Of a stretch of 64,000 bases of DNA, positions 7,746-14,754 are shown piece by piece (the first letter of the stretch is position 1; the number at the start of each line of letters is the position of its first letter). The DNA comes from a halophilic archaeon SHRA6 (GTDB lineage: Archaea; Halobacteriota; Halobacteria; Halobacteriales; Haloferacaceae), in NCBI GenBank assembly GCA_005239175.1, contig SOPS01000005.1:62001-126000 (forward strand). The letters run 5' to 3'. A program made the translations under genes and the position numbers. The notes below the pieces were generated by a model. The model made no database searches and was not told where the DNA came from. It saw only the letters and a list, made by a program, of their open reading frames with translations.

Positions 7746-8012
7746 TCAGTTTCGAATTTCGGGTTCACCGTTCGTCGTCGCATCGCTGAACTCCGATCGC
7801 AGCGAGTACACCCGTTTTCGTGCGTCAGGAATGTAGACGTCTTCGGTGACTGCATCGATCGAGGAAAGGTCGTCAAGCGCGCTTCGAACAGTCCGTGGCG
7901 CGAGAAGCGACTCTTCGGCCAGGGCTTTCTGTGTCATCCCACCGTTCCACTCGAGGATCTTGAACACGAGTTTTGCGCTTGGGGGGAGGTCGTGTATCTC
8001 ATCGCGCATCAT
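7746..8012 (-). CDS. Winged-helix transcriptional regulator (MarR/TrmB-like)
   Basis: The 88-residue protein is essentially one winged helix. MRDEIHDLPPSAKLVFKILE forms helix 1. The segments MTQKALAEESLLAPRTVRSALDD form the helix-turn-helix, and a short wing ends near VYSL. It has no ligand-binding domain. A start at 8009 (second Met) is equally possible. Upstream lies an array of four 22-bp repeats (8057-8144), which could be its operators, although it could also serve the divergent helicase operon. Confidence 0.8.
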   Translation of the reverse strand: MMRDEIHDLPPSAKLVFKILEWNGGMTQKALAEESLLAPRTVRSALDDLSSIDAVTEDVYIPDARKRVYSLRSEFSDATTNGEPEIRN

Positions 8013-8056: not shown

Positions 8057-8144
8057 GTACGTGGTATTTGCACAACCGGTACGTGGTATTTGCACAACCG
8101 GTACGTGGTATTTGCACAACCGGTACGTGGTATTTGCACAACCG
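8057..8144. repeat. Four perfect 22-bp direct repeats in a divergent promoter region
   Basis: Units at 8057-8078, 8079-8100, 8101-8122 and 8123-8144 are identical, and each contains TATTTGCACAACCGGTACG with the palindrome ACCGGT at the junction. The array lies between the HTH gene (start 8012, minus) and the AddB-like gene (start 8268, plus). There are no spacers, so it is not a CRISPR array. Confidence 0.95.
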
Positions 8145-8267
8145 GGCGGAGCGTCGGGTGTTGTACATGGATACGGCGCACTCTCGGGAGTGAGTCACAA
8201 TTATACGATCCGTTTGCAGCGATTCCCGCGGTCACACCCTTAAGTACGATGCCGCACAACGCTGCCT

Positions 8268-10457
8268 GTGAGCGAACATCACGAGAGAACGCTTGCGGGT
8301 CGACTCCGAATCGATGAGTTCTCCGCAAGATCGCTCGCGGCCCGGGCTGCGAGCGCCTACGAGACACTCCTCGCTGAAGGGCACGATCCAGCCGATATTC
8401 TCGTCCTCAAGCGGTTTCCGAGCGGTACCACGGCGTTTGAGCGCGACCTCGCCGATGAGCTGTCGATCCCAGCCCGGCCGAACGTCGAATCAGTGCTCGA
8501 TCACGCGGCCTCGATCCACGCCTACGCCGCCCCGGATGAACAGGTCCTCTCAGACTACGAGCGCTACGAGCTGCTCCGGACCGTCATCAATGGCTGGAAC
8601 TGGTCAACACCGTATCTGAAGCGAGCCGCTGAGGCGGAGTCGTTCGGTCGCGACGTCGGCCGGGTTCTCCTCGTCGCGAGCTGGGGTGGATTCGGCGATC
8701 GGACCAACGACGATCCGACAATGGCCGCCGCGATCGAAGAACTCGAAGCGGTCCAAACAAGGTTTCGGGAAGCACTGGCAGAGCGATCGTCGCTCGAGCA
8801 GGCGCAACTGGTCGAACGGGCTCGCGACGCGCTGTCGACATCCGATGTCCGTGCGTTCGTGTCGGCGCTGTTCGATGCGGTACTCGTCGTTGATTTCGAA
8901 GAGTTCGGCTCGCTCGAACGATCGTATCTCTCGGCACTGACAACGGACGCGGAGCTGTACTGTCTGGGTGAACGGGACGCGAGTGTCCAGCGAATCTGGA
9001 ACGAAAGCGGCTCGGTCGAGTCGATCGGGACGGCAGCAGGGCTGCAGTGTGTACCAACGGAGTTCGATTCCGAGGCGCTTTCGGACCCGGCGGCGATCGG
9101 CCGCTGGCTCGCATCCGGGTCCCTGCCCGACGACCGCGATCACACCGCCTATCGCGTCGCTTCGGAGACCTTTGCGGCTGAACTCGAGGCGATCGCCGAA
9201 GAGATCGAGGCGCTTCGAGACCGGGCGGGCTATCGCTACGAGGATTTTGCCGTGTTGCTTCGCGACATCAATCAGCCGGTTCACGAGGCTCGGTCGATCC
9301 TCCGCCGTGCCGGCGTCTCGACGGCATCGGCAACTGTCGAGGGACTCTCCGAGGACCCCGCAATTCGTGAGATTCACGCACTGATCCGGGTGTTGGCTGC
9401 CGACGACGCCGAGGCAATGGCGACGCTCGAAGGGCGGACCACAGTCGACGCAGCGTTGCTTGAGACGATCCGCGCGGAGCCGACGATCGCGGGAGCGATC
9501 GATCGCTGGATCGTCGAAACGGACCTCAAAGATCGGATCGCCGACGAACGCGAGGTCGACGCCTACGGCTCGTATCGCAACATCCGAGAGATCCGCGACA
9601 TTGCCGCGTTCTTCGACGGCGCGGACTTCCTGGCCGGCGGCTATCAGTCGTTCTTAGAGACGCTCGAACGGGCGATCCAGTACGTCGCACCCGATCAGTA
9701 CACGACAGAGCTGTCTGTCGAAGAAAACGGCGTCCTTGTCGATCCAATTCGGGTCGCAAAGTACGACTCGCGGCCGATCGTCTTTCTCGTCGATGTCGTC
9801 GAGGGCATCTATCCGCCCGACACACAGACACTTACCCGACTGTTTCCGACCGACTGGGTCAAACGATCGGCGGCGTATCCCGGTGTGACAACGCTCGATC
9901 CCACGACGGTGTCAACGTCGTTTTCGGCGGTCGAGACGCCCGACCGCAACGCCTACGACGCCTACTACACTGCGCTTTCGCGGCGACAGCTCGCTGTTGG
10001 TGCTCGGGTCGGGACCGACCGGCTCTACCTCTGTACGGCCGATCGTGGCACCCGATCGCTCGGTCGACGGCGACATCCCTCGCGGTTTCTTCGCTCGTTG
10101 GAATCACTCCCGCAGATCACGATGGCAGCTGGATACACCGTCGACGCCGCAGGGCGATCCAACGGAACCCGCGGTGGGAGCGATTCACCATCTCATGAAC
10201 AACCAGAGATCACCCGATACACGCCGACCGGTGTCGCTGCTGCGGCGATACAAGAGCCGTGGCGATCGCTTTCGGCGGTCGAACGAGCGGCGAGCCTCGG
10301 CGATCGCGCAGATATGCGTACAATCCGCGAGCGACTAGCGGCGATCGCTGAGCTGTGCGACCGCGAGGACGTCGAGCCGCGGTTCCGCGACGCCGTCTAC
10401 ACGCAGATCGATATGGCGAATGGCGATATTGGAGCTGCGGAGGAACGATCACAATGA
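8268..10457 (+). CDS. AddB/RecC-like inactive helicase subunit
   Basis: This 729-residue protein, read from a GTG, has the architecture of a superfamily 1 helicase that has lost its catalytic motifs. There is no Walker A loop near the N-terminus; the expected place reads LKRFPSGTTAFERDLADEL. A motif II-like strand reads VLVVDFEEFG near residue 205-214 in place of a DExx box. Later segments (EDFAVLLRDINQPVHEARS, VFLVDVVEGIYP near 505 and YTALSRRQLAVGA) correspond to motifs IV-VI in degenerate form. There is no nuclease domain at the C-terminus. It is the first gene of a three-gene operon and overlaps the next gene by four bases. By analogy with AddB and RecC, a structural DNA-scanning role is inferred. 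Confidence 0.7.
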   Translation: MSEHHERTLAGRLRIDEFSARSLAARAASAYETLLAEGHDPADILVLKRFPSGTTAFERDLADELSIPARPNVESVLDHAASIHAYAAPDEQVLSDYERYELLRTVINGWNWSTPYLKRAAEAESFGRDVGRVLLVASWGGFGDRTNDDPTMAAAIEELEAVQTRFREALAERSSLEQAQLVERARDALSTSDVRAFVSALFDAVLVVDFEEFGSLERSYLSALTTDAELYCLGERDASVQRIWNESGSVESIGTAAGLQCVPTEFDSEALSDPAAIGRWLASGSLPDDRDHTAYRVASETFAAELEAIAEEIEALRDRAGYRYEDFAVLLRDINQPVHEARSILRRAGVSTASATVEGLSEDPAIREIHALIRVLAADDAEAMATLEGRTTVDAALLETIRAEPTIAGAIDRWIVETDLKDRIADEREVDAYGSYRNIREIRDIAAFFDGADFLAGGYQSFLETLERAIQYVAPDQYTTELSVEENGVLVDPIRVAKYDSRPIVFLVDVVEGIYPPDTQTLTRLFPTDWVKRSAAYPGVTTLDPTTVSTSFSAVETPDRNAYDAYYTALSRRQLAVGARVGTDRLYLCTADRGTRSLGRRRHPSRFLRSLESLPQITMAAGYTVDAAGRSNGTRGGSDSPSHEQPEITRYTPTGVAAAAIQEPWRSLSAVERAASLGDRADMRTIRERLAAIAELCDREDVEPRFRDAVYTQIDMANGDIGAAEERSQ

Positions 10458-11332
10458 GCGAGCCAATCGCGATCGACGAGCTGACGACGTATCTCGCCTG
10501 TCCGAGGCAGTACGAATACCGCTATCGCCTCGAAATCGCGCGCGACTCTGCCATCCAAGCACGCGAGCGAGCGCTTGGGGCAGTTCGGGACGCGATCACA
10601 GCGGGGTTGGTTCACAGTGGCACCGTCGAGGATCGAATCGACGAGGCACTGAGTCGTCTCGCCGAGGAGGCGATCGATGACAGGGCCGTCAACGTCGACT
10701 GCCGAGAGGCGATTCGATCGTACCTCGGTCGGTTCGCAGATAGCCACGGAACTGAAGTATATGCGAGCGACGAAACCGCCACCCTTGGGATCGGCGGCCG
10801 TGAAATCGACTGTCCGATCGACGCAATCGTCTCGATCGACGACCAACCAGTCGTCCTGCAGTATCAATTTGACGTTGACGACGTGGCGTTCGATGGGGCG
10901 AGAAACACGATTGCCAAACACACCGGAGGCAACATGTACATTCCAGGGCCTGCCGGGAGCGTGCTCAGGGCGGTTGCGACCATGGAGGCGCTCGCGACGG
11001 ACGATCGGTTCACCACTGACGGCACACCTGCGGGAAAATCCCCGGTTGGATTCGCGTACGTCGGACTGACCCAGACGGTCAGGCCAAGCGTCCCCGCAGC
11101 AGGCGACGCGAGTGAAATTGAGATTATTCCCGAAATCCGTCGGCTCGATGCAGCCTACGAGGCCGAACGTGACGCGGCGCTCTCGGTGCTCGACAACCTC
11201 ATCACGTGGCTGTCCGCACAGGCGTACGACCCAGGCGATCGGTTCGACGACATTCGGAAGACGGTGTGTGGGGACTGTTCGTACACCGGCATGTGCTCGC
11301 CGTACATCAACGCGGAGGTGCGATTCGAATGA
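10454..11332 (+). CDS. Cas4/AddB-like Fe-S nuclease-fold protein with lost active site
   Basis: The 292-residue protein has the layout of the AddB C-terminal/Cas4 PD-(D/E)XK nuclease with an Fe-S cluster. Cys16 lies in TYLACPRQYEYRY, and Cys272, Cys275 and Cys281 lie in CGDCSYTGMC, giving the four-Cys Fe-S pattern. The core strand keeps an Asp (D123 in CPIDAIVS), but the expected E-x-K after it reads Q136-Y-Q138 (VVLQYQF). Metal-dependent cleavage is therefore unlikely. The start ATG overlaps the previous stop by four bases, and its own stop overlaps the next start by four. Together with the preceding gene it would make a split, RecC-like or AddB-like subunit. This is inferred from motifs, not from structure. 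Confidence 0.7.
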   Translation: MSEPIAIDELTTYLACPRQYEYRYRLEIARDSAIQARERALGAVRDAITAGLVHSGTVEDRIDEALSRLAEEAIDDRAVNVDCREAIRSYLGRFADSHGTEVYASDETATLGIGGREIDCPIDAIVSIDDQPVVLQYQFDVDDVAFDGARNTIAKHTGGNMYIPGPAGSVLRAVATMEALATDDRFTTDGTPAGKSPVGFAYVGLTQTVRPSVPAAGDASEIEIIPEIRRLDAAYEAERDAALSVLDNLITWLSAQAYDPGDRFDDIRKTVCGDCSYTGMCSPYINAEVRFE

Positions 11333-14300
11333 GCGACGACTCGCCATCGAGCCCACGACTGAAGGGCAATCAGCCGAACGTTGCGTCCGCACAGGCCGAG
11401 CAGATCGTCGTCGACGCCGGCGCAGGAACCGGAAAGACGACGACGATGGTCGCGCGGATCGATCGGCTCATCGACGAACGCGGCGTTGACCCGAACGACG
11501 TCCTCGTGTTGACGTTCGCGAACAAGGCTGCCCACAGTGCGGTCGAGCGACTGACAGATACGATCGAAGACGCGAGCGCGTACAACATTGACGCCTCGAC
11601 GTATCACTCGTTTTGTTATCGGCTGTTGCGCGAGTACGCGTATGCCGTCGGACTCGACCCGGAGTTCGAGCTTCTCACCGATGATCGAAAACGGGCGGTA
11701 ATCGCCGAGATTCACGAGGGACTCACGCTGAGCGATGTCAGCCGTGATCGGGCGACTGCGGACGATCTGTACCAGTTCATCGAATCGTTCAGCCGGGAGG
11801 GAATTAGCCCGGACGATATCGAAACACACCTGCCGGATCGAGCGGTTCTGGTCGCGTGTCGATCGGTCGTCCGCGACCTTCGATCGACCGCGGACGAGCA
11901 GTTTGGCCCTGATAGCGACGGCGCGCTCGCGTTCACGTCCAGTGGGGGCCACGGTCGTCTCGTCGAGCGACTCGAGCGATTCGAACAGGTCCTTCGATAC
12001 CGCAGCACTTCGATCGACGAGGGCGATCCGTTCGGTCAGGAGGTTCGGTCATACCTCGATGATTGTACGGAGATCGTCCGATCGTTGATCGAAACGCTGC
12101 CGCAGAAGGGGAGTGACTGGTCGCGAGTTCCCTCGGGGCTATTCGGAACGTGGGGCGGTGCCCACGGCGGAGCGTTGCGGGACACCGCACAGACGCCGAT
12201 CGTCCGGCTGGGCTCCTACATCGAGCTATTCCTGCGAGCGCACGACTTCCTCGAGGGATACCGTCGGTACGAGTCGCGGTTACAAGAGCGAGGGGCCGTC
12301 GACTACAACGGTCTGATCCGCCGTGCGACGGCACTGCTGGAGAGCGATCTCGGTGCAGACGTGTGCGATCGCTACGGCTACGTCTTCTGTGACGAGTTCC
12401 AGGATACCGACAGTGCACAGTTGGCACTCATTGATCAGTTGGCCACGGACGCAGACCTGTTCGTGATTGGCGACGCCGACCAGGCGATATACGAGTGGCG
12501 CGGCGCCGATCCGACGAACATCACCGACATCGAATCCGCGTTCCCGGGCATCGAGTCGATGGCGCTGGAGTTGAATTTCCGCTCGCGACAGCCGATCTTG
12601 GACCTCTCGAACGAGCTTCCGGGCAGTACGAAAACGCTCACCTCGGATCGAGGCCGCGGCGAGCGATCGATCTGTACTGTCGAGGCCGACGGCGACCTCG
12701 AGACGCAGGCCGCACAGGTCAGCGCGACAGTGTCGGCGCTTTTGACCGACGGGTTCGACGAGATTGACGGCCACGATCTCGAAGAACTCGCGGTACTCGT
12801 GAGAAAGAACCGCGAGGCGGAGGCCGTGTGTGCAGCACTCGCCGAAGAGAGCATTCCGTACGTCAGAGCCGGCGGCTCCTCGTCGTCGCTCCCGCCGGGA
12901 ATACAGACGCTCGTCGCGTACCTCCGGCTCATTGTCGACCCGAGCGACGACCGCCGCGCAATCCGGGTTCTCAAGCTGGTGTATCGGCTTGCAGATGGAG
13001 ACATTCGCGCACTGGCCGACGAGCCGGGGACCATCGTCGACGCTGTCAGATCGATCGAGAAGACCGCCGTCTTGAACCCAGAGGGGCTCACTCGTGCACG
13101 AGCGGATATCCCCGCGCTCATCGACGCTGTACAGACGGACTCAGTCTCGGCCGTCTACGCCGAGCTTCGGGAACGGACCCGGATCGACTGGACGTTCACC
13201 GACCGCGACCGCAGGCTCCTGCCGGCGGTTGAATCCCGAATCGACGCGTTCGAGGATGCGCCGATCGAAACTCGGCTGTCGACGGCGTTCATCGATTACC
13301 TCGCAGATCCAGCCGCACTCACGAACACCGAGCAGGGACGCGATGACGTTGGCGATCGAAGCAAAGATGCGGTTGACGTGATGACGGTCCATCAGGCCAA
13401 AGGGCTCGACTTTCCCGTCGTCTTGGTGCCGTTTCTCGGCCCCTCGTGGGCGCCGCCACCGAGCTTCCGGCTCTGGGGTGAACGCACGGACTGGTCGGTG
13501 TTGCGCCGGCGGATCGAGTCGCCACCTGTTGACCCCCTCACCGAGCCGCTCTCCGCGGCAGCGGTTGCCGAGCAGTGGCGCGTGCTCCACGTCGCAATCA
13601 CCCGCGCTCGCGATCGGCTTGTCCTCTTTGGGAACAACGACGATACCGCGACGGTGCCAGCGGCGGAACTCGACGAGTTGCTCCCACCGTCGATCGGGTG
13701 GCGACACGGCGGGCCAGCGGTTGACACATGGGGCGCGGTTTCCGACGCCGTCGAGACGATTCAGGCGGACGATCCGACGGCAGTGTGTGATCTGACGACG
13801 GCCGTCGAACAGGTTCGAACGACGACCCGCGAACAGATCACCTGGTACGACGGCACGCGAGCGAGTCCCGATCGAGCAATTACAGAGATCCGCCGGCTGA
13901 CCCGACAGCTCAAGCGGGGAACGCTGACAGCAGACGCCCCCGCGGACTCACCGTACCAGGCGACGCCAACCGCCGGCGAGCGCGCTGATCGGCTACCGAG
14001 GGTTCACAGCCACACGTCGCTGGAAGCGTTCGGGGACTGTCCGCGAAAACACTATCTCGACCACGTCGTGTATGGGTTCGAGGACCCGCCGTTGGCGACG
14101 ACAGCCGATCGGGACGGACAGGATGCGGTCTCCCAGCGGGCGATCGGGACGCTGTTTCACGCGGTCAGAGAGGACTGCTACTGGCGAGGATACACGGAAA
14201 AAGCCGAGTGGGACGCCGCCTGTGAACGGATCGCTCGCCAACGGTCGCTGTCGGCAGCAGTGCCTGCCACAAAGGCGTGTATCGATCGCTACTTCGAAAG

Positions 14301-14754
14301 CCCGGTCTCCGAGTGGTCGATCGTGAGTTCGGAACTGCCGTTTTCGCTCGACGCGCTGGCAGAACGAACTAGCGCGGACGGAATCACCGGCTACGTAGAT
14401 GCGGTGTATCGAACTCCGGACGACGACCTTGTCGTGATCGACTACAAAACGACTGATGCGGATCGCTCGATCGAAGACAGCGCCCAGCTCGTGTTATACT
14501 TGCTGGCCTGTGATGCTCGATTCGACGAGCCGATCGAGTCAGTCGGGTACCTCTCGCTTGGCGAGTCGGGCCCGCAGCTCACGCTGTTCGATCGCGCCGA
14601 GGTGTTCGAACAGATTCCGGAGCTAAAATCGACGCTCGAAGCCGCAAACAACTCCGGCTACCAGACGGTGACACCGGGACCGTACTGTCAATACTGCCCA
14701 CACCGATCGCTCGGCTGCGGCGATGCATACCTCGACAACAGCGCTGAACGCTGA
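11329..14754 (+). CDS. UvrD-family helicase with C-terminal Fe-S nuclease (AddA/RecB-like)
   Basis: The 1141-residue protein carries a full set of SF1 helicase motifs: Walker A GAGTGKTTT (about residues 29-38), Ia VLTFANKAA, II CDEFQDTD (about 354), III GDADQAIYEWRG, IV LNFRSRQPI, V TVHQAKGLDFP and VI VAITRARDRL (about 755). The C-terminal nuclease has GTLFH (about 940), GYVDAVY, VVIDYKT (about 1035) and a QLVLYLL motif. Its Fe-S cysteines are in DCPRKHYL (about 903) and CQYCPHRSLGC (about 1120-1130). All catalytic residues expected for both activities are present. It probably unwinds and degrades DNA ends for recombination or for destroying foreign DNA, with the two upstream proteins as partners. 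Confidence 0.85.
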   Translation: MSDDSPSSPRLKGNQPNVASAQAEQIVVDAGAGTGKTTTMVARIDRLIDERGVDPNDVLVLTFANKAAHSAVERLTDTIEDASAYNIDASTYHSFCYRLLREYAYAVGLDPEFELLTDDRKRAVIAEIHEGLTLSDVSRDRATADDLYQFIESFSREGISPDDIETHLPDRAVLVACRSVVRDLRSTADEQFGPDSDGALAFTSSGGHGRLVERLERFEQVLRYRSTSIDEGDPFGQEVRSYLDDCTEIVRSLIETLPQKGSDWSRVPSGLFGTWGGAHGGALRDTAQTPIVRLGSYIELFLRAHDFLEGYRRYESRLQERGAVDYNGLIRRATALLESDLGADVCDRYGYVFCDEFQDTDSAQLALIDQLATDADLFVIGDADQAIYEWRGADPTNITDIESAFPGIESMALELNFRSRQPILDLSNELPGSTKTLTSDRGRGERSICTVEADGDLETQAAQVSATVSALLTDGFDEIDGHDLEELAVLVRKNREAEAVCAALAEESIPYVRAGGSSSSLPPGIQTLVAYLRLIVDPSDDRRAIRVLKLVYRLADGDIRALADEPGTIVDAVRSIEKTAVLNPEGLTRARADIPALIDAVQTDSVSAVYAELRERTRIDWTFTDRDRRLLPAVESRIDAFEDAPIETRLSTAFIDYLADPAALTNTEQGRDDVGDRSKDAVDVMTVHQAKGLDFPVVLVPFLGPSWAPPPSFRLWGERTDWSVLRRRIESPPVDPLTEPLSAAAVAEQWRVLHVAITRARDRLVLFGNNDDTATVPAAELDELLPPSIGWRHGGPAVDTWGAVSDAVETIQADDPTAVCDLTTAVEQVRTTTREQITWYDGTRASPDRAITEIRRLTRQLKRGTLTADAPADSPYQATPTAGERADRLPRVHSHTSLEAFGDCPRKHYLDHVVYGFEDPPLATTADRDGQDAVSQRAIGTLFHAVREDCYWRGYTEKAEWDAACERIARQRSLSAAVPATKACIDRYFESPVSEWSIVSSELPFSLDALAERTSADGITGYVDAVYRTPDDDLVVIDYKTTDADRSIEDSAQLVLYLLACDARFDEPIESVGYLSLGESGPQLTLFDRAEVFEQIPELKSTLEAANNSGYQTVTPGPYCQYCPHRSLGCGDAYLDNSAER

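Follow-up and report, generated by a model that had tools for sequence, protein, structure and literature searches.

The stretch analyzed here (the window) comprises 64,000 nucleotides (nt) of the halophilic archaeon SHRA6 (contig SOPS01000005.1, positions 62,001 to 126,000 of the forward strand). It contains three genes, hereafter A, B, and C, which are joined by two short overlaps (Table 1). An earlier note, made from the letters alone, had given the right coordinates for the genes and their ATGA overlaps and had proposed an archaeal AddAB/RecBCD-like system with split, inactive partner subunits. We consider it probable that the three proteins assemble into a single AddAB-like helicase-nuclease that acts on DNA ends, with the pair A plus B taking the place of AddB. 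Compared with Halalkalirubrum salinum (L101), the nearest named species, whose A is 98% identical, the ratios of nonsynonymous to synonymous substitution (dN/dS) were 0.055 for A, 0.15 for B, and 0.10 for C, indicating that all three genes are under purifying selection.

Table 1. Genes, overlaps, and motifs of the trio in the window. Fe-S, iron-sulfur; SF1, helicase superfamily 1; aa, amino acids. Fractions are loci in which the feature is conserved.
Feature	Position	Strand	Remarks
Gene A	8268..10457	+	GTG start, 729 aa; SF1-helicase-like without Walker A, AddB N-terminal-like (putative motor-dead scaffold, possible strand scanner)
Gene B	10454..11332	+	292 aa; Fe-S PD-(D/E)XK nuclease fold, catalytically degenerate in the window, AddB/AdnA C-terminal-like
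Gene C	11329..14754	+	1141 aa; UvrD-type SF1A helicase fused to Fe-S PD-(D/E)XK nuclease, subunit in AddA/RecB position
ATGA overlap, A stop/B start	10454..10457	+	
ATGA overlap, B stop/C start	11329..11332	+	
A degenerate motif II region	8862..8933	+	FDAVLVVDFEEF replaces DEFQD, from alignment
A motif VI-like region	9945..10046	+	YYTALSRRQLAVGARVGTDRLYL, from alignment
B first Fe-S-type cysteine, C16	10499..10501	+	80/80
B Q136-Y137-Q138 at the position of catalytic D-Y-K	10859..10867	+	from alignment
B other Fe-S-type cysteines, C272-x2-C275-x5-C281	11267..11296	+	80/80
C Walker A, GAGTGKT	11419..11439	+	from alignment
C motif II, DEFQDT	12391..12408	+	75/75
C first Fe-S-type cysteine, C904	14038..14040	+	75/75
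C nuclease active site, D1024 to D1038-Y-K1040	14398..14448	+	75/75
C other Fe-S-type cysteines, C1120, C1123, C1130	14686..14718	+	75/75

The sequence of A matched SF1-like families weakly (UvrD_C, E = 0.006; AddB_Gpos, E = 0.001; a marginal match to PcrA), and a Walker A motif near the N terminus was found in none of the A proteins, in agreement with the earlier description of A as an inactive SF1 helicase-like protein. AlphaFold models of A and B were built from input alignments composed of the window proteins and the loci found in a search for related loci. When the model of A (pLDDT 83.6) was compared with the PDB using Foldseek, AddB entries were at the top by TM-score (TMq 0.61–0.64, E about 1e-22), against TMq values of 0.45–0.53 for UvrD/PcrA folds; the structural similarity to AddB on which the earlier proposal had been made to depend is present. 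With the A profile as query against PDB chains, AddB came first (3.3e-9) and UvrD1 next (5.3e-9). The alignment of A with methanogen-type AddB by hhalign covered residues 16–736 with a probability of 98.3 (1.8e-14), and the match of A to C was weaker (8.6e-11). Among the profiles built in this analysis, that of AddB scored highest for 14 of the 18 A representatives. The best reading of these alignments and of the model is that A is closest to the dead helicase domains of AddB.

B matched PDDEXK_1 (E = 6e-8) and carries four cysteines of the Fe-S type, as expected from the Fe-S nuclease fold attributed to it before. Its model (pLDDT 89.5) was closest in fold to the AddB nuclease (1.6e-5), followed by AdnA, Exo5, a Cas4-family nuclease, and RecC (2e-3); the B profile gave chance matches only against PDB sequences. 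By hhalign, B aligned weakly to residues 711–742 and 871–1016 of methanogen-type AddB, both in its C-terminal part. A and B are therefore collinear on AddB, as expected for a split AddB, and our best reading is that AddB appears to have been split at a domain boundary into A and B. RecC had been suggested as the subunit split in two; the split of the partner stands, but AddB is the better counterpart, because B folds best on AddB and AdnA and RecC ranks lower.

C has the N- and C-terminal domains of UvrD and a PDDEXK_1 nuclease with an intact D...DYK and four cysteines, which confirms it as a full UvrD helicase-nuclease. The AddA model scored 156 bits on C against a cut-off of 708. We also considered C as a Gabija protein and did not adopt this assignment: the matches to GajB models come from the shared UvrD core, and no OLD-like GajA was noticed beside C, although no search aimed at GajA was made.

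Conservation of the trio was evaluated in 80 named haloarchaeal loci and in a class sample of 145 haloarchaeal genomes. Among the named loci, every one of the 79 with a B gene has it overlapping A (the contig of L130 stops before B). Of the 74 with a C gene, 73 have it overlapping B, the exception being L162, where C is without its start. In the class sample, B and/or C follows A in 55 of 56 loci, the remaining one (L099) being a lone A fragment; overlaps of −4 or −8 nt were found at both junctions in 47 of 53 measured trios and at one junction or more in all 53. This arrangement is far beyond chance, and the joint conservation that the earlier note had asked for is evident. A is present in 54 of the 145 genomes, and at the same threshold B occurs in 47 of those, directly after A. 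Outside Halobacteria, the phylum sample yielded only distant helicase-nucleases, and no A homologue was confirmed on viral contigs.

The loci fall into two types according to the active site of B, which is intact in type 1 (32 loci) and lost in type 2 (48 loci, including the window). In the residue numbering of L152, H45, D154, and K156 are all kept in 32 of 32 type 1 loci; in type 2, where the column assignments depend on the alignment, K156 is missing throughout, and neither H45 nor D154 is found in more than two loci. All 80 loci, the 48 of type 2 included, have D141 and the four cysteines. In both types, C has retained its Walker A and motif II sequences, the D, D, and K of the nuclease, and the four cysteines. 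When a tree was made from A and C, with B excluded, a single branch separated the intact from the lost state of B, and the tree of C rooted on E. coli UvrD gives two halves supported at 100/98 (lost, including the window) and 100/99. The active site of B was lost once, on one branch, in parallel to bacterial RecC. Judged from these motifs, type 2 B is probably catalytically inactive. The inactivity of B claimed in the earlier note therefore applies to the branch of the window, with its Q-Y-Q, but not to the sister clade. Both states of B co-occur in single genomes (G029, G136, and H. salinum).

Type 2 B, which has lost its catalytic residues and is the most divergent of the three proteins, could be taken for a decaying relic beside a machine formed by A and C alone. 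We regard this as very improbable, because B is in frame and overlapping at every type 2 locus that the contig covers, its cysteines are complete throughout type 2, and its dN/dS between the window and H. salinum indicates that the degenerate protein is still constrained.

Like AddAB (AddB, 3u4q_B), the trio combines a motor-dead SF1 partner and an Fe-S nuclease with an active SF1A helicase-nuclease, and its genes are closely coupled in the order AddB–AddA. A corresponds to the SF1-like partner without motor motifs, and A and B fold best on AddB. By contrast, the AddB role is divided between two genes here; the Fe-S PD-(D/E)XK nuclease of the partner is the separate protein B, active only in type 1 by motif and predicted to be dead in the window branch; and C is neither within the AddA clade nor above the AddA cut-off, the trio as a whole being far below the AddA/AddB equivalog cut-offs. 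Owing to these three departures (split partner, dead nuclease here, and motor outside the AddA clade), we describe the trio as a variant of the AddAB/RecBCD/AdnAB kind. The label AddAB-like in the earlier note is justified, but AddAB itself would not be, since C has Fe-S cysteines and branches apart from the AddA/RecB clade. Type 2 resembles RecBCD in that the partner is inactive by motif as both helicase and nuclease and one nuclease is left; it differs in the split of the partner and in the weak fold match of RecC to B. RecC is also not known to carry the four Fe-S cysteines that B keeps. No RecD-like 5′–3′ helicase gene was seen adjoining the trio in the window, as had been noted before; this absence sets the trio apart from RecBCD and is normal for AddAB. 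In mycobacterial AdnAB, the partner has an Fe-S nuclease and a vestigial motor, and the active UvrD-nuclease is the lead motor. Its folds are close to those of A and B, but AdnAB consists of two fused UvrD-nuclease genes instead of three genes, its AdnA nuclease is active, and A has no Walker A at all.

Several observations weigh against our interpretation. In fold, A is no farther from one AdnB entry than from AddB (TM 0.61), and for B, AdnA comes nearly level with AddB, so an AddB ancestry is not proven over one from a duplicated UvrD-nuclease. On the profiles, the window's own A ties (AddB 15 bits, AddA 17, C 15), and the window's own B scores on none of the reference profiles. C, with its Fe-S cysteines, forms its own clade outside AddA/RecB in a tree that has long branches and few bacterial AddA/RecB sequences. 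The trio could instead have arisen in parallel to AddAB, from a duplicated UvrD–Fe-S-nuclease resembling AdnAB or the stand-alone proteins of the phylum; one copy would be C, still intact, and the second, after loss of its motor, would have been divided into A and B. The position and cysteines of C, the close second place of AdnAB in fold for both A and B, and the stand-alone UvrD-nucleases (1020 aa) in other members of the phylum are consistent with such an origin, but the AddB profile leads for most A representatives and hhalign prefers AddB over C for A, so we consider a duplication possible but doubtful. An AddAB-like enzyme with A and B in the place of AddB remains our preferred reading.

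AddAB has one SF1A motor and one nuclease per strand. Scanning for Chi, which AddAB recognizes through AddB with an ionic latch, falls to the dead helicase domains in AddB and in RecC (PMC4824097); the Fe-S site of AddB is a structural staple (PMC3466216). By analogy with these enzymes, A, B, and C would form a complex whose polarity, strand assignment, and scanning may be proposed as follows. C, as motor and nuclease, would load on a double-strand end, move 3′–5′ along one strand, and cut with its Fe-S RecB-type nuclease. The separated strand could be threaded through the motor-dead SF1 core of A, a possible sequence scanner, and B would be an Fe-S nuclease module that sits at the fork, stabilizes it and, where its active site is intact (type 1), cleaves the other strand. 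Both nucleases of type 1 look active, as in AddAB. In type 2, B presumably cannot cut, and C would do all the cutting, like RecB in RecBCD; whether it serves both strands or leaves one uncut is a testable difference between the types.

The genomic neighbors of the two types differ. A prokaryotic Argonaute (pAgo) gene lies directly upstream of A, on the same strand, in 8 of 32 type 1 loci (L152, L153, L154, L155, L167, L170, L177, and L179). In seven of these eight, a PLD gene stands between pAgo and A and ends 6 nt before A; these loci read pAgo-PLD-A-B-C and lengthen the published APAP defense operon. The same order is given in the RefSeq annotation of a Salinigranum marinum plasmid. According to excerpts of the APAP paper, the pAgo-PLD pair is the APAP (pAgo-AgaP) system, active against plasmids and a halovirus, and a helicase-encoding gene adjoins some ago-agaP operons; some type 1 trios follow this pair on the same strand, but the excerpts describe neither A, B, nor an AddAB-like complex (PMC11442185). 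In L162, a pAgo fragment of 441 aa lies 7.5 kb upstream, and L150, L156, and L157 have an AAA ATPase gene, two of the three with a PLD gene downstream. Other defense-like neighbors of type 1 are Mrr, PDDEXK_4, a TmtA-like protein, and, near L214, BREX-5 PglZ. At the level of genomes, 10 of 21 type 1 carriers have pAgo, as against 9 of 124 others (p = 2e-5). Sixteen plasmid records carry A homologues, of which 15 are full-length, and some type 1 copies are degraded (L099, an A fragment; L081, a short C; L162, a broken C); type 1 therefore looks mobile.

Type 1 is patchy and often plasmid-borne, whereas type 2 is near-core in Natrialbaceae, where type 2 A orthologues (at least 59% identity) occur in 87 of 116 genomes and any A match in 103 of 116. 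None of the 48 type 2 loci has a pAgo, PLD, or AAA gene nearby; the window has no pAgo or PLD gene at the locus, and no Piwi match was found in its genome. The window copy sits among what look like chromosomal housekeeping genes: named by sequence resemblance, these are aroE, ftsZ, nusG, and genes for a Rieske protein and a helix-turn-helix (HTH) protein on one side; encoded on the opposite side are a DUF5800-like protein and a YchF-type GTPase. Upstream of YchF, where three relatives were compared as possible empty sites, the gene order is different.

These contexts bear on the possibility that the trio is, family-wide, primarily an anti-mobile-element defense that breaks down foreign DNA in linear or cut form, together with pAgo and PLD in type 1 and by itself in type 2. 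The defense-like neighbors of type 1, the excess of pAgo among its carriers, the plasmid-borne homologues, and the decay of type 1 copies all point in this direction, but the absence of pAgo, PLD, and AAA genes near type 2, its near-universal presence in Natrialbaceae, and the window copy between ftsZ/nusG/Rieske-like genes and the YchF-type GTPase do not, and we regard a defense role for the whole family as rather unlikely. The anti-mobile-element idea of the earlier note thus finds its context in type 1 only. The context rather suggests that type 2 serves chromosomal end processing and repair and that type 1 destroys foreign DNA; that the repair role derives from genomic context is a further point to be held against our interpretation. 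Once pAgo or AgaP has opened DNA, the type 1 enzyme would degrade it and might feed fragments to pAgo as guides; RecBCD processing has been reported to supply guides for pAgos expressed in E. coli (PMC10269773).

Further genes were noticed beside type 1 trios and other loci. A 375-aa protein (L150:15309-16436, with matching open reading frames in L156 and L157) is convergent with C, matches about the first 100 positions of the pAgo profile, and shares the N-terminal domain of type 1 pAgo; it was not counted as pAgo and is perhaps a detached pAgo N-terminal domain. A 1644-aa protein with a PADLOC TmtA match lies beside the type 1 trio in L164 (3335-8269) and also in L159, L161, and L169. A cluster of upstream neighbors in 16 loci reads as UvrA by eye.

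AddAB- and RecBCD-type enzymes have been worked out in bacteria. Searches limited to open-access papers gave no description of the trio in haloarchaea. If our interpretation is correct, haloarchaea own a DNA-end machine in addition to NurA and Mre11-Rad50. The two types would then represent a natural experiment on the passage from a two-nuclease to a one-nuclease enzyme, both stages of which persist within a single class and, in some cases, a single genome. Through its gene order, type 1 connects an AddAB-like enzyme with an Argonaute operon and makes the suspected link between pAgo and RecBCD/AddAB directly testable (PMC10269773). Only tentatively do we propose the full combination, namely an undescribed archaeal AddAB/RecBCD branch with a two-protein AddB role, a second AddB-to-RecC step in which the Fe-S staple was kept, and a two-nuclease branch that is the DNA-degrading, possibly guide-supplying, arm of Argonaute-PLD immunity. 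Substitution of the trio for a missing HerA-NurA was also considered and dropped, because the NurA family (PF09376) was found in 144 of 145 haloarchaeal genomes and in H. volcanii. The latter finding is contrary to a review that states both HerA and NurA to be absent from H. volcanii (PMC7776575).

Two-gene AddAB-like pairs were also observed in archaea (L100, L218, and L206-L209). Like the trio, they have adjacent AddB-like and AddA-like genes with the AddB-like gene first, but the AddB-like protein is unsplit (868–1062 aa), and they form separate lineages in the C/AddA tree. The pair in L100 (G000:C2, 3067-8542) belongs to the window's own genome, which thus has a second system of overlapping genes (868 and 958 aa); its AddA-like gene is present in 70 of 145 haloarchaeal genomes. 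The third haloarchaeal pair lies on a Natrinema caseinilyticum plasmid (L218, 1772-8591) beside BrxA and McrC genes. In L206-L209, from one other family of the phylum, the unsplit AddB-like gene overlaps the AddA-like gene, and the AddB and, weakly, RecC models match. L100 also encodes a 1536-aa protein (9739-14349) in which a DUF4013 domain is joined to a helicase IV-like UvrD domain.

Just upstream of A in the window, positions 8058-8145 hold four tandem 22-bp copies containing TACGTGGTATTTGCACAACC, of which about three are present in H. salinum (L101). The array adjoins a small HTH gene (7746-8012, minus strand) and is possibly an operator array.

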